NCBI GenBank assembly: GCA_029210175.1 | Contig: JARGPL010000020.1 | Location: forward strand, 1 to 64,000 | Direction of reading: 5' to 3' | Source: Minwuia sp. | GTDB lineage: Bacteria > Pseudomonadota > Alphaproteobacteria > Minwuiales > Minwuiaceae | DNA length: 64,000 bases | Shown here: in pieces, positions 27,172-33,552 of the stretch | Numbering within the stretch: position 1 is the stretch's first letter | How the letters are laid out: every line of letters starts with the position of its first letter | Program-made: the position numbers and the translations under genes | The notes under the pieces: generated by a model | The model's database searches: none | Seen by the model: the letters and a program-made list of their open reading frames with translations, nothing else | Told to the model about the DNA's origin: nothing

Positions 27172-27322
27172 GTTGGCTGCATTTCTCCGGTTGCCCCTGC
27201 TTGAGGCTTTCTGTCACGGGGTATGATCGCGACCTTGTGCGCTGCGTACGAGGGCACGACCTGCTAACGCCCTGTGCGCCGGTATCGGGCGCAAACCTGT
27301 CCATTTCGATCGGAGAGCTTCA

Positions 27323-29188
27323 ATCCTGACCCGTCTCATCCGTACCTGGCCTGGCAGACCGTCTCTGTGGCGCGCAAGCGCTGCGGCGCTTGTGTTGCTG
27401 GTTGCTGCGGGCTGCAGCAGCGTCGGGCTGGATGATCTGCTTGGTGAGGACAGTACTGTCACGCAACTGGGCGATGTCACATACACGGCTGTCATCGAAG
27501 GCGTGCCGGAGGATGAGGGCATTGACGAGGTCGCGAGGGGTGTCCTGAAGACCTTCACGCTTCAGTCCCGGGGTGTGCGCAGCGTGTCCGCCCTGCAGCG
27601 GCGGGCCGATGAAGACATCGAGGAACTGCAGCGGATCCTGCGGGCAAGCGGCTACTACGATGCCCGGGTGACGACCGATGTGTCCGATACGGCACCACCG
27701 CAGGTCACATTCCGCGCCGAACCCGGCACGCGCTACACGATTGGCGAATTCCGCATCGCGTTTCAGAAAGCCAGGGACACGCTGCCCAAACCCGCCCTGC
27801 TGGACGTGGCGGCGGAGTTGCCGTCCGGTTCCGCCGCGGCGGGGGAGCGCATCGTGACTGCGGAGGCAAAGATCGTCACCTACCTGCAGGAGCATGGCTT
27901 TCCCCATGCGGCCTTCCACGCCCGGACCGCCCGTGCGAACCGCGAACTGGCGACCCTGGATGTCACGGCGACCTTCGCCAGCGGCCCCTACATCACCTAT
28001 GGCGATGTCGTTGTTGACGGCGATCCGGGCGTCGAGACCGATTATCTGCTGGGCATGATCAACTGGGACCCGAACACACCGGTTGCCCAGTCGGAGCTCA
28101 ACCGTGTTCAGGAACGCATGGCGTCCACGGGGCTGTTCAAATCCGTCAGCGTGCGCCTGCCGGAACATGAGAAGGGCAGTGCCGTCGCGGACGGGCCGCA
28201 GCCGATCACGGTCAAGGCGACAGAAGCCAAGCCCCGATCCATCAGCGGCAGCCTGCGCTTCGACACGGACCGTGGTCCAGGCGTGCGGGCGGGCTGGCGG
28301 CACCGCAATCTGTTCGGGCGGGCGGAAGATCTGCGGACCGAGCTTGATCTGTCTCTGGACGAGCAGAAGCTGTCCGCCGAACTGTCGCGACCGCGTTACC
28401 CCTCCGCACGCTGGACGGTCTTCGAAGGCGCCGAACTGCGCAACACGTTCGATGATGCCTTTGACGAGCAGGCGGCTGAGGCCCAGGTCGGCATGCGCAC
28501 GGGGCTGGAGAACGGCTGGACCGTCAGCGGTGCGATCAAGGGCAGCGTTTCGGCCACCGAAACCGATGTCGAAAGCGACACGGCCTACCTGATCGGGCTG
28601 CCGCTCACGGCGCGCCACGTCCGGACGAATGATCCCCTGAACGCCACCAGGGGACACAAGCTGTTCCTGTCAGCGACCCCTTACATGGGCCTCAACGATG
28701 GCTCCCCCACCTATTTCGGCGTGATGTCCGCGGGTGGCTCCTATTACCTGCCCGTGATTGGCGAAGACAGTCTGGTCTTTGCCACCCGGGCACGCCTGGC
28801 GTCGATTCTCAGCGGTGATCTGGAAGATGTGCCGGTCAACCAGCTGTTCTTTGCCGGTGGCGGCAGTTCGGTTCGTGGTTTCGGCTTCCGCTCCATCTCG
28901 CCGGTTTCACTCGGCGATGAAACCGGTGGTCGTTTCCTCGCCGAGACGGGGCTGGAGGCGCGGGTCAAGGTGACGGACAGTTTCGGTTTCGTCACCTTTG
29001 TCGATGCCGGTCTGGTGGAGGAGGAACCGTTTCCAAATTTCAAGGAACGGGTGAATGTCGGCGTCGGTGCGGGCTTGCGCTACTACAGCCCTGTCGGGCC
29101 AATCCGGTTTGACCTGGCCTTTCCGCTGCACCGTCGGGCCGGCGACAGCCTGTTCGAATTCTACATCAGCCTCGGGCAGGCATTCTGA
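27323..29188 (+). CDS. tamA: TamA/BamA-family outer membrane protein
   Basis: A 621-residue protein: POTRA-like domains (for example VSALQRRADEDIEELQRIL and YDARVTTDVSD) and a C-terminal 16-stranded barrel with the conserved GGGSSVRGFGFRSISP (VRGF/Y lock) and PVGPIRFDLAFPL. TamA works with TamB in assembling or lipid-supplying the outer membrane. The first canonical start in frame, a GTG 69 bases later, would remove the signal sequence. The frame back to a TGA holds no ATG, GTG or TTG, while GGAGAG sits at the right distance from an ATC (27323) followed by a CTG. Translation from there gives an arginine-rich start and ALVLLVAAGC, a lipoprotein signal with C31. Start coordinate is inferred. 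Confidence 0.85.
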   Translation: MLTRLIRTWPGRPSLWRASAAALVLLVAAGCSSVGLDDLLGEDSTVTQLGDVTYTAVIEGVPEDEGIDEVARGVLKTFTLQSRGVRSVSALQRRADEDIEELQRILRASGYYDARVTTDVSDTAPPQVTFRAEPGTRYTIGEFRIAFQKARDTLPKPALLDVAAELPSGSAAAGERIVTAEAKIVTYLQEHGFPHAAFHARTARANRELATLDVTATFASGPYITYGDVVVDGDPGVETDYLLGMINWDPNTPVAQSELNRVQERMASTGLFKSVSVRLPEHEKGSAVADGPQPITVKATEAKPRSISGSLRFDTDRGPGVRAGWRHRNLFGRAEDLRTELDLSLDEQKLSAELSRPRYPSARWTVFEGAELRNTFDDAFDEQAAEAQVGMRTGLENGWTVSGAIKGSVSATETDVESDTAYLIGLPLTARHVRTNDPLNATRGHKLFLSATPYMGLNDGSPTYFGVMSAGGSYYLPVIGEDSLVFATRARLASILSGDLEDVPVNQLFFAGGGSSVRGFGFRSISPVSLGDETGGRFLAETGLEARVKVTDSFGFVTFVDAGLVEEEPFPNFKERVNVGVGAGLRYYSPVGPIRFDLAFPLHRRAGDSLFEFYISLGQAF

Positions 29189-32100
29189 TGCGACGTCGTA
29201 TGCGCCGTATCCTGCTGTGGTCCCTGGCCATCCTGCTGACGCCTGTCCTGCTGGTGCTTGCCGCTGCGTTCTGGTTTCTGGAACTGGCGGGGGAGGACAC
29301 ATGGACGGCGGCACTCGACCTGGGCCTGGCACAGGCAAACAGTCCGGGTGAGCTGGAAATCTCTGCCAGCGGGTTCCTGCGCGACGAGGAAGGCGTGATC
29401 CATCTGGGCAGGCTGGAGCTGGCTGACGGGCAGGGGGTCTGGCTGACGCTGGACCAGCTTGTGCTCGACTGGCGGCTGCGCGACCTGTTCGGCAGAGCCG
29501 TGACGATTGATGCGCTGACGGTTGGTGCGATCGATGTGCGCCGCCCGCCGATCAGTGCCGCGGATACGGAACCGGAGCCGGAAACGGGCGAATCCATCCT
29601 GCAGAGTTTCGACTGGCCCCGTGCGCCGGTGGCGGTTCGCCTTGATCTGCTGCGGGTCGACCGTCTGACGCTTGGCGATGGAATTGTGCCCGGTGGCGCG
29701 AATTTCCGCATCGAGGGGTCGGCGCTGGATGCGGGGTCGACCCAGGCGCTGAAGCTGGATGTGCAGCCGCTGGACCTGCAGGAAAGCTTCGCCCGCGCGG
29801 ATATCGCGCTTGATTTAGCCTCCCGTGTTTCGCGGATGGGAATTGCCGTCGATCTGCCAGCGATTGCGCCGGTTTCGGATGTGCTGGGCATCACACCGGA
29901 CGAACGCCTGTTGCTGAATGTCAGCGGCGGCGGTCCGTTCGGGTCTGCCACGCTCGAAGCATCGGCCACGGTGCAACGGGTGGTGGACCTGCTGCTGGGT
30001 CTGGAACTGAAGGCTGATCCGGAAACCGGCTGGTCACTGACAGCCGATGGCGTGGTCAATCTGCTGGACGCTGCCCCTGTACCGACCGAATTGACGGGGG
30101 AGGTCATTCCGTTCCGGTTTGCGGCTGCGGGTCCCGATGAAACCCGGGCCCGGCTGCAGGTGCTGGAAGTGAGCACCCGGTCGGCGACGCTTGCAGCCAG
30201 TGGATCGGTTGATCTGGGAAGCGGCACCGTTGACCTGTCGGCCACTGTTGATGCGCATCGCCATCCGGCACTTGATGCGCTGATGACGGGCGCGACGTTC
30301 GACACCGCGCAGGTTCGGGCGCATGTCACGGGCACCTTCGATAGCCCCGCATTGGATGTGGCTGCCGATCTTGCTGCCCCCGCGTTCGGGGACATGGGCG
30401 CCGAGGCGATCACGCTTGCCATCAAGGGGGGTCTGGCCGGGTCGGACTTCGCCGGTGATGTGGCGCTGACCGTGACCAATCCGGCGATGGGGGACCCCGA
30501 ACTGGACGGGCTGCTTGGTGCGACGCCGCGCCTGACGGCATCGATTGATGCGGGCGCTGAACAGGTCAGGGTCACGGCACTCGATCTCACGGCCTCTGCC
30601 TTTGGATTGACGGGTAACGTGGTCACGCCTTTGCCTGACCCGGTCCTGAATGGCGAACTCGTGCTGCTGCTGCCCGATCTCAGCCGCCTGCCGGGCGCGA
30701 ATGCGGCGCTGAGGAATGGTGGCGCACATCTGGTCGTGACCCTCGACAACCTTCAGCCTGCCGGGGGCGGCGAGGTGCGGTTGGCGGGTGATGTCCGCCA
30801 GCTGTCATTCATTGATCCCGTGCTGGGTCGACTGATTGGCCCCGCTGTCCGCCTCTCGGCAACCGCGCGTCCCGGCGCGGAAGCCAATGCAGTCGATGTC
30901 TCTGTCGATACGGCGGCTGGTCCTTCTCTGAAGGCCGATGCGCGGTTGTCTGGTGCTGGTGCGCTGGACGGACGCTACAGCGTCAGCGTTCCGGCGTTGC
31001 CCGATGGTCTGCTGCCTGAAACAACCACCCTCGACGGCCCGGTCCGCCTGCAGGGAACCCTGGCCGGTACGGCGGACGCACCATGGACGCGGGGGCAACT
31101 CAGCCTCGACGCCGTTGTCAGTGGTGACATTCGCATCGACCGCCCTGTCCTTGCCTACGACGTGCGCAATCTTGCCACCAACCCTGCCGGCACTGTGGCG
31201 CTGGATGGCACCTGGGGTGGCGAGGCACTGGACCTGGATCTCAGCTTCGCCATGGCGGATGCATTCCAGCGGCTTGACCTGTCCGCTCTGTCCCTGTCGC
31301 TGGCGGGCCTGAAGGTGGACGGAAATGGCCAGTTTGCGCTGGCGACACCAGCCTATCGGGCCGACCTTGCGGTCACGTCCGATGCGCTGGCACCGCTCGG
31401 GGCGCTGTTTGGCGTGCCGCTGGCCGGCAGCCTGGACGCAAAGGTTGCCCTGGCGCCCGAGGGCGGCGATCACGCAGCGGACGTCGTGGTCCGGTTGCAG
31501 GATCTTCAGGCTCCGGACGCCGGGGTCAGGGTCCGCGCCGTCGCCCTGTCTCTTGAACTGAAGCAGTTGCTGTCGGCGCTGCCACGGCTTGGGGGAACGC
31601 TTGCGGTCGAGAATGTCGAGGCCGATGGGGCGAGGATCGAATTGCTGGATGCCCGGCTGGGCGGCACATTCGAGAGACCGGCAGTCGAAGTGCGGGCCAC
31701 CGCAACCGACCCGGAGCCAGCCAACCTCCGGACACTCATCGTCGCGAACCTCGCCGGGACCAGCGGGCCGGAGATCGAAGTGCAGGCGCTGCGTCTCGAA
31801 GGGGGCGATGCGGCAATCGAGGCCGTGCAGCCCTTCCGCGTGGTGGTTGGTGACATCATCACCTTGTCGGGCTTGCGCCTTGGCACGTCTTTCGGTGGGG
31901 AAGTGCTGGCCGATGTCCGCTATGCGGCTGATCTGCTGGACGCCACGGTCCGCATCTCGGCGCTGCCGCTTGGCCCCCTTGCCGCAATTGCCGGGATAGC
32001 TGGGGTGGCAGGACAACTCGCCGCCGACGTGAGGTTCGACAGCACTGCGCCTGACGACAAGGCCCGGCTTGTGCTGCAGGTTGATGGCCTTCACCCGCCC

Positions 32101-33552
32101 GGTGATGATCTGGGTGCCAGTTTCGATATTGTGGTCAATGGTGCCTGGAACGGTAAGGTCGCGACCGCACGTACGGAGGTATCCGGCCCGTTCGATACCC
32201 CGCTGACCGCGGAAGTGCGGGCGGCGGTCGGACAGGACGTCGGTTCGTTCCTGCCAGTGCCTGATCCGGAAGGTGCCTTGCAGGGCCGCATCGACTGGCA
32301 AGGTGATCTCGCCCAGATGATGCAGTTGCTGCCTGAAGGTGACAATCTGCTCTCCGGTCGGGCGGTGGTGTCAGTGAATCTGTCCGGCACGGTGGGCGCA
32401 CCCGTCCTGCAGGGCCAGATCGGCATCTCGGAAGGTCGCTACGAGAATCTGATGACAGGTACGGTTCTGGAGGCACTGACACTCGACACGACATTTGCAG
32501 ATTCCGGGGAAGGGCAACTGACCCTGTCAGCCGTGGACCGGGTCGGGGGCACCATCGATGGTGCCGGTACCGCCCGGCTGCTCGGCGCCGACCGGAATGC
32601 GGCGGTACAGATCAACCTCAACCGCCTGCGTGCGGTGAACAGGGAAGAGGCTACGGCGCTCCTGTCCGGCAGGACCGACGTGAACTGGGACGGCAAGTTG
32701 TTGAAGGTCACCAATCGCACAATCATCGATGAGGCGGAGATTCGCCTGATCGCGGACAACCTTCCCCCCAGCGTCGTGGATATCGACCTGGCGAACGACA
32801 TCGGCACACCGGCACCCGAGCCGCAACAGGAAGAGCCGGCCGAGGACCTGCCCATCCTGCTGGATGTGGAAGTGGATGCGCCATCCAAGCTGTTCGTGCG
32901 TGGTCGGGGGCTGGATACGGAATGGGCGGGAACGGTCACGGTGAAGGGTCAACTGCCGGACCCCGTTCTGGATGTGAGCATCGGTGTGGTCCGGGGGCAG
33001 CTGTCCCTGCTCGGCAAGGATTTCCAGGTCTCGACGGGCGAGATCGGCCTGACCGGCAACCTGCAACCGCGATTCAATATCGAACTCACGCGCCAGACCG
33101 GTGACCTTGAAGGCACGATCAGCATTTCCGGCAGTCCGGCAAAGCCGACCATTGCATTCTCCTCGACCCCCGAACTGCCGGAAGACGAGGTTCTGCCGCG
33201 TTTGCTGTTCGACAAGCCCGCGCAGTCGATGAGCCCGCTGGAAGCCATTCAGCTGGCCCAGAGCATCAACACGCTGACCAATGGCGGTGGCGGTACGACC
33301 GACAAACTGCGGAAGGCCGTCGGGCTTGACGTGCTGCGGGTTGAAGAGGGCAATGACCCGGATTCCGCCGGCTCGGTTGCAGTGGGCCGCTATGTGCGGG
33401 AAGGCGTCTATGTCGGTGCCAAGCAGTCCCTCGATTCGGAAGCCGGAAGTGTCGTGGTGGAAATCGACGTATTGCCCAATCTGAAGGTCGATGCGGAGGT
33501 TGGGCGCGGCGGCGGTGGCAGCACAGGCCTGACGTGGGAACGTCGCTACTGA
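29188..33552 (+). CDS. tamB: TamB, translocation and assembly module subunit
   Basis: A 1454-residue protein anchored in the inner membrane by an N-terminal helix (RILLWSLAILLTPVLLVLA) and spanning the periplasm with long repetitive beta-rich segments that form a hydrophobic groove. The C-terminal DUF490/TamB domain is recognisable by VRGQLSLLGKDFQV, GLTGNLQPRFNIELTRQ and ISGSPAKPTIAFSSTPELP with the ending VEIDVLPNLKVDAEVG. Its ATG overlaps the tamA stop by one base (TGATG), so expression is coupled. Both act together, or as an AsmA-like lipid conduit, at the envelope. Confidence 0.94.
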   Translation: MRRRMRRILLWSLAILLTPVLLVLAAAFWFLELAGEDTWTAALDLGLAQANSPGELEISASGFLRDEEGVIHLGRLELADGQGVWLTLDQLVLDWRLRDLFGRAVTIDALTVGAIDVRRPPISAADTEPEPETGESILQSFDWPRAPVAVRLDLLRVDRLTLGDGIVPGGANFRIEGSALDAGSTQALKLDVQPLDLQESFARADIALDLASRVSRMGIAVDLPAIAPVSDVLGITPDERLLLNVSGGGPFGSATLEASATVQRVVDLLLGLELKADPETGWSLTADGVVNLLDAAPVPTELTGEVIPFRFAAAGPDETRARLQVLEVSTRSATLAASGSVDLGSGTVDLSATVDAHRHPALDALMTGATFDTAQVRAHVTGTFDSPALDVAADLAAPAFGDMGAEAITLAIKGGLAGSDFAGDVALTVTNPAMGDPELDGLLGATPRLTASIDAGAEQVRVTALDLTASAFGLTGNVVTPLPDPVLNGELVLLLPDLSRLPGANAALRNGGAHLVVTLDNLQPAGGGEVRLAGDVRQLSFIDPVLGRLIGPAVRLSATARPGAEANAVDVSVDTAAGPSLKADARLSGAGALDGRYSVSVPALPDGLLPETTTLDGPVRLQGTLAGTADAPWTRGQLSLDAVVSGDIRIDRPVLAYDVRNLATNPAGTVALDGTWGGEALDLDLSFAMADAFQRLDLSALSLSLAGLKVDGNGQFALATPAYRADLAVTSDALAPLGALFGVPLAGSLDAKVALAPEGGDHAADVVVRLQDLQAPDAGVRVRAVALSLELKQLLSALPRLGGTLAVENVEADGARIELLDARLGGTFERPAVEVRATATDPEPANLRTLIVANLAGTSGPEIEVQALRLEGGDAAIEAVQPFRVVVGDIITLSGLRLGTSFGGEVLADVRYAADLLDATVRISALPLGPLAAIAGIAGVAGQLAADVRFDSTAPDDKARLVLQVDGLHPPGDDLGASFDIVVNGAWNGKVATARTEVSGPFDTPLTAEVRAAVGQDVGSFLPVPDPEGALQGRIDWQGDLAQMMQLLPEGDNLLSGRAVVSVNLSGTVGAPVLQGQIGISEGRYENLMTGTVLEALTLDTTFADSGEGQLTLSAVDRVGGTIDGAGTARLLGADRNAAVQINLNRLRAVNREEATALLSGRTDVNWDGKLLKVTNRTIIDEAEIRLIADNLPPSVVDIDLANDIGTPAPEPQQEEPAEDLPILLDVEVDAPSKLFVRGRGLDTEWAGTVTVKGQLPDPVLDVSIGVVRGQLSLLGKDFQVSTGEIGLTGNLQPRFNIELTRQTGDLEGTISISGSPAKPTIAFSSTPELPEDEVLPRLLFDKPAQSMSPLEAIQLAQSINTLTNGGGGTTDKLRKAVGLDVLRVEEGNDPDSAGSVAVGRYVREGVYVGAKQSLDSEAGSVVVEIDVLPNLKVDAEVGRGGGGSTGLTWERRY

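Follow-up and report, generated by a model that had tools for sequence, protein, structure and literature searches.

A Conserved AUH Codon as the Probable Start of a Lipoprotein-Type TamA in an Alphaproteobacterial Genus

Introduction

To our knowledge, start codons that are conserved and yet differ from ATG, GTG and TTG occur in very few genes, most of which control translation itself or form part of regulatory switches. The gene of initiation factor IF3, infC, is the classic example of discrimination by IF3 and is known with an AUU, AUA or AUC start. A further case is Streptomyces sigR, which is repressed by IF3. It starts with GTC, replaced by GTT in 2 of 34 species, and this start holds SigR at a level under that of RsrA, the partner to which it is coupled (PMC5472188). 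The conserved AUU and AUA starts of Staphylococcus aureus cvfC1 (AUU), ccpN (AUA) and citZ give about 10% of the AUG output in poor medium (PMC13009471), and a title in the reference list of that paper names pcnB of Escherichia coli as a gene with an AUU start. On the side of the protein, the published surveys place lipidated TamA-like Omp85 proteins (TamL) in Bacteroidetes and Chlorobi, where they are thought to work with TamB (PMC4104836, PMC4494059, PMC12045153).

Here, we describe the tamA gene in a window of 64,000 nucleotides (the whole stretch of DNA that was analysed). Based on sequence comparison, we consider it probable (roughly 0.6) that this gene starts at a conserved AUH codon (AUC, AUU or AUA) which is discriminated against by IF3 and which would keep TamA low.

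The tamA–tamB Locus

The encoded protein carries the features of a TamA: POTRA domains (Pfam POTRA, 2e-9; the POTRA_TamA_1 match of 22.7 bits lies under the cut-off of 26), an Omp85 barrel (1.4e-42 in the profile search), TamA as best solved relative (8us1, E 1.2e-38) and a tamB gene next in line, whose product matches PF04357 (5.2e-45). The one-base overlap between tamA and tamB, noticed in the preliminary description of the locus, is present as TGATG in all seven members of the genus compared, the window included, and in each of them TamA comprises 621 residues when read from the proposed AUH start.

The positions initially assigned to the upstream TGA, GGAGAG, ATC, CTG, GTG and Cys31 are all correct base for base (Table 1). 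Between TGA 27224 and GTG 27392, the tamA frame contains neither ATG nor GTG nor TTG; GTG 27392 is directly followed by an in-frame TTG at 27395, and both codons lie within the hydrophobic core AAALVLLVAAGC. Translation from ATC 27323 yields ILTRLIRTWPGRPSLWRASAAALVLLVAAGC, with the cysteine as residue 31. Further upstream, a block of conserved sequence that reads TATAAT in one member (L004) sits between an FMN-reductase-like gene and tamA.

Table 1. Features of the tamA start region and its surroundings (positions in the window).
Feature	Position	Strand	Basis or remark
Last in-frame stop TGA before tamA	27224..27226	+	Window sequence
Conserved CCTTG...GTA...ACGA block 5' of tamA; promoter-like, putative function	27233..27262	+	Alignment of L001–L005
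Shine-Dalgarno (SD) sequence GGAGAG	27312..27317	+	Duplex −6.6 kcal/mol; aligned spacing 5 to ATC
Proposed start codon ATC	27323..27325	+	Counterpart is ATC, ATT or ATA in 7/7 genus members
Rival start CTG adjoining ATC	27326..27328	+	Comparison of relatives
Rival start CTG (Cys as residue 17)	27365..27367	+	In-frame CTG in 7/7
GTG, first canonical start in frame, within signal core	27392..27394	+	Window sequence
Proposed lipoprotein signal peptide, 30 residues	27323..27412	+	Translation from ATC
Lipobox cysteine Cys31 (VAAGC), TGC	27413..27415	+	Lipobox in 7/7 genus members
tamA, 621 residues from ATC	27323..29188	+	Frame, domains, solved relative, tamB overlap
tamB, ATG overlapping tamA stop by one base	29188..33552	+	Frame and PF04357

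The Start Region across the Genus

Nine genomes of the order were compared, seven of which belong to the genus of the window (loci L001–L007, with L001 being the window itself). A canonical start combining an SD with a whole signal occurs in 0/7 genus members. Five (L001–L004 and L007) have no canonical start 3–45 codons before the signal core, and L005 and L006 have only SD-poor TTG codons in that range. The TTG of L005 would leave a good signal, at an SD energy of +1.9 kcal/mol, i.e., SD-less; the far-upstream TTG of L006 is absent from its near-twin L007, and a TTG found in both, 13 residues before the cysteine, comes without a charged n-region and without an SD. The remaining canonical codons of the genus are scattered 4 to 8 residues before the cysteine.

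In all seven members, the best SD, calculated as a duplex with the 16S tail, is found at −6.4 to −7.8 kcal/mol and at an aligned spacing of 4–7 nt before an AUH codon. The codon is ATC in L001 and L002, within GGAGA(G/A)CTTC(A/G)-ATC-CTG, ATT in L003, L004 and L005, within GGAGA(A/T)TT(C/T)CC(T/C)G-ATT, and ATA in L006 and L007, within AGGACGGTACCAG-ATA. The non-canonical start suggested from the window alone is, hence, a rule of the genus and not an oddity, and a search of close relatives for an SD-backed canonical start that leaves the signal whole ended without a case in 7/7. In the same family outside the genus, TamA of G008 (L017) has canonical start codons before its signal. The genome G007, likewise of this family and 99% complete, gave no TamA match except a weak BamA-like one.

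As to the discriminating power of the SD, 252 of 6463 random intragenic ATH codons have an SD site that is as good, and 261 coding ORFs of the genome sequence examined have a median SD energy of −4.85 at their first canonical start. Between L001 and L002, the stretch of SD, ATC and the three following codons is identical at 23 of 28 positions, with 10/29 before and 10/30 after it, and 0 of 20,000 shuffles reached this identity there. In the trio L003–L005, the SD and ATT stretch (21/28) is no better conserved than its flanks, and a fraction of 0.37 of the shuffles reaches it. Folds of the seven genus members from −60 to +45 revealed no common RNA structure by eye; the SD is mostly paired in five of them.

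Control Loci

The same procedure, asking for a canonical start 3–45 codons before the signal core, was applied to all loci. Such a start is present in 30/30 BamD loci (returned from 57 genomes searched) and in 13/13 BamA-type loci (L027, L028 and L030 left out), those of the window's own genome included. By comparison, infC starts with ATA in 8/8 matched genomes of the order (L045–L052; nine searched), its context in five genus members being aaggggaaaccc-ATA-gcccgtccg; therefore, this lineage uses an IF3-discriminated codon elsewhere. In the ninth genome, G005 (89% complete), no infC match was obtained.

Among 109 TamA loci (the survey left out L024–L030 as BamA-type or partial, L135, which is the same place as L157, and L155, which equals L112), ten were flagged as lacking a canonical start. 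These are five genus members, L112 and L156 from the genus of G131, L103, and two artefacts, namely L141, whose core had been misplaced, and L148, where an ATG adjoins the core. L103 (G146) and L015 (G022), from one genus with non-lipoprotein TamA, have no canonical start closer to the core than 45 codons, and the 5' ends of these two loci offer no conspicuous candidate; the canonical start of L083, a GTG 44 codons upstream, is likewise distant.

In the genus of G131, where TamA is a lipoprotein, two of six members have no canonical start in place and read GGAGC followed by an in-frame CTG (SD energies of −8.7 in L155 of G131 and −5.8 in L156 of G402), while the other four read GTG starts. This CTG is suggestive of a second, independent non-canonical tamA start.

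In addition, 448.8 kb (the window and 384.8 kb of its genome) with 296 ORFs were scanned for further genes whose coding signal begins ahead of the first canonical start. No clean second case emerged; the rows obtained were either unclear or artefacts of the wrong strand or of edges. By design, the scan is blind to short extensions of the infC kind and gives no rate.

Alternative Start Sites

ATC 27323 is the best, if unproven, start candidate in the window, with CTG 27326 and CTG 27365 remaining beside it. The latter is the main rival. Initiation at CTG 27365 and its in-frame equivalents would produce a short, typical lipoprotein signal, MWRASAAALVLLVAAGC. In that case, the upstream SD and AUH codon would be a remnant, a leader or a minor additional start. 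An in-frame CTG that makes the cysteine residue 17–20 is found in 7/7 genus members, which agrees with the usual 16–19 residues of lipoprotein signals; however, CTG is a common codon, and its presence at this place is weak evidence. From the AUH codon to the 27365-CTG, there is no excess of third-position substitutions (codon-position counts of 3/3/3 in 8 codons of the trio and 6/6/8 in 10 codons of the pair), whereas an excess begins after this CTG (5/7/11 in 20 codons and 4/4/11 in 17), so that it looks as if protein constraint began there. Against CTG 27365 stand its SD energies, which are near zero in L003–L007, −2.6 in L001, and −5.1 at a spacing of 3 in L002, and the fact that the near-identity of L001 and L002 around SD and ATC amid diverged surroundings is left unexplained.

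Signal peptides often have low codon-usage scores. Codon-usage scoring failed to place the start, with all three frames below zero; the 23 codons scored are not coding-like at −4.8, and the other frames gave −3.7 and −4.5.

The start mapping for Caulobacter, likewise an alphaproteobacterium, bears on both sites, as CTG is the commonest non-canonical start reported there (0.7%, versus 0.25% for other near-cognates), and the majority of starts are listed as having no SD, which weakens the SD argument for AUH (PMC4117421). Weighing the SD and conservation data against the third-position pattern and the CTG use in Caulobacter, we favour the AUH start and regard CTG 27365 as an unlikely, although serious, contender.

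A start at CTG 27326, directly beside the ATC, appears rather improbable. The SD would serve it with −6.6 at an aligned spacing of 8 in L001 and L002, and L003 and L004 likewise have a CTG after the SD, but at a spacing of 4; moreover, the counterpart in L005 is CCG, and L006 and L007 have no CTG at this place.

Very improbable is a start at the internal canonical codons (GTG 27392 and its like), with TamA lacking a full signal or using another export route. An automatic gene finder would probably choose GTG 27392. Omp85 proteins require export, however, and most of these codons would cut the conserved signal; counted from them, the position of the cysteine varies from member to member (8 and 7, 8 and 5, 9, 5, 22, 14, 14). 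Scarcely credible is a start upstream or in another frame, joined to tamA by frameshift or readthrough: in the window, a reading frame of 14 codons begins with ATG 27223, out of frame with tamA, but this ATG is missing in L002, and the upstream in-frame stops lie at differing places (−96, −72, and directly before the SD in L003–L005). Finally, an ATG or GTG hidden by a sequencing or assembly error, a read error near 27,320 having been considered at the outset, is refuted and has found no support, given that the same lack recurs in six further genomes and that a shared error is excluded because two of the seven assemblies (G003 and G006) are single-contig.

Lipoprotein Signal and Lipidated TamA in Alphaproteobacteria

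By pattern, a charged n-region, a hydrophobic core and a lipobox with its cysteine are present in 7/7 genus members (AAGC, LAGC, LAAC, LGGC, LAGC, LAGC and LAGC), and the lipoprotein signal proposed for the window thus gains support from conservation. With these three elements, the TamA product would most likely undergo export and acylation at Cys31, and a linker of about 30 residues before the first POTRA domain would serve to anchor it.

The accompanying view that TamA does not usually belong to the lipoproteins has to be qualified. Outside the genus, a lipobox was read by eye in 25 of 102 alphaproteobacterial TamA N-termini, an uneven sample of the class picked by similarity to the window TamA; L102, L148 and L150 were doubtful and are not part of the count, which includes four loci of a targeted draw and is 21/98 without them. 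On a TamA tree of 71 rows, obtained by a quick method and deliberately enriched for lipobox rows, the lipobox state changes at least 8 times, with 5 of the changes forced by starred branches (L071 and L203, flagged by the lipobox pattern, were set to non-lipoprotein by hand), and the genus sits among mostly lipidated TamA. It seems, hence, that lipidation of TamA was gained or lost on several occasions within Alphaproteobacteria. In the literature searched (titles and beginnings of abstracts, with subscription journals mostly outside), neither a lipidated alphaproteobacterial TamA nor a non-canonical tamA start was found described.

Proposed Mechanism and Significance

We propose that the SD, 4–7 nt upstream, positions the ribosome on the AUH codon, an isoleucine-family codon, AUC in the window and, among its relatives, AUU or AUA, which initiator tRNA would read as fMet. 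IF3 would discriminate against this start. With such a weak codon, little TamA would be made, and the outer-membrane partner would be in short supply compared with TamB, which would begin from its own ATG overlapping the tamA stop. Such a limitation of TamA is plausible by analogy to sigR/rsrA, pcnB, cvfC1 and ccpN. The mechanism predicts that TamA is low compared with TamB and rises when IF3 fidelity falls. When the CTG loci in the genus of G131 are added to the AUH starts described here, it is a speculative, and rather doubtful, extension that weak IF3-discriminated starts recurrently throttle lipidated TamA, with TamA supply and TAM-dependent outer-membrane assembly following the IF3 level, as does sigR in Streptomyces.

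Limitation of a gene by a conserved near-cognate start is of a kind known in few cases, to which tamA would be added as a new one; we know of no earlier outer-membrane biogenesis gene with such a start. If true, the genus-wide AUH start would, thus, open a new class of targets for this kind of control, automatic annotation would be cutting the signal off TamA, and the TamA:TamB ratio would become a testable, regulated quantity. The repeated gain or loss of lipidated TamA in Alphaproteobacteria bears, in addition, on why TamL of Bacteroidota is lipidated.

Comparison with Known Systems

TamL of Bacteroidota and Chlorobiota resembles the window TamA in combining an Omp85 barrel, POTRA domains and a lipoprotein signal (PMC4494059, PMC12045153, PMC4104836). 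In contrast to TamL, the window protein is an alphaproteobacterial TamA encoded in a tamA–tamB operon; it groups among alphaproteobacterial TamA rows in a tree without TamL rows, its assignment to TamL was rejected, and descent from TamL is not claimed.

With regard to the start, infC shares with tamA an AUH codon behind an SD, being ATA throughout the matched genomes of the order; it differs by feeding back on IF3, a loop that tamA lacks. In cvfC1, ccpN and pcnB, too, both the SD and the non-canonical start after it are conserved, and output is limited, as we propose for tamA; these are different genes, and those of S. aureus have an extended SD in place of the ordinary GGAG core of tamA (PMC13009471). 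A comparable arrangement is that of sigR (PMC5472188), which likewise has a genus-conserved non-canonical start with one-base variation of the codon and is the first gene of a coupled pair. Its start is GTC instead of AUH, it encodes a regulator and not an outer-membrane protein, and the IF3 repression demonstrated for it would only by inference extend to tamA. In sigR, a weak start keeps the first partner of the pair low, just as is proposed here for TamA.
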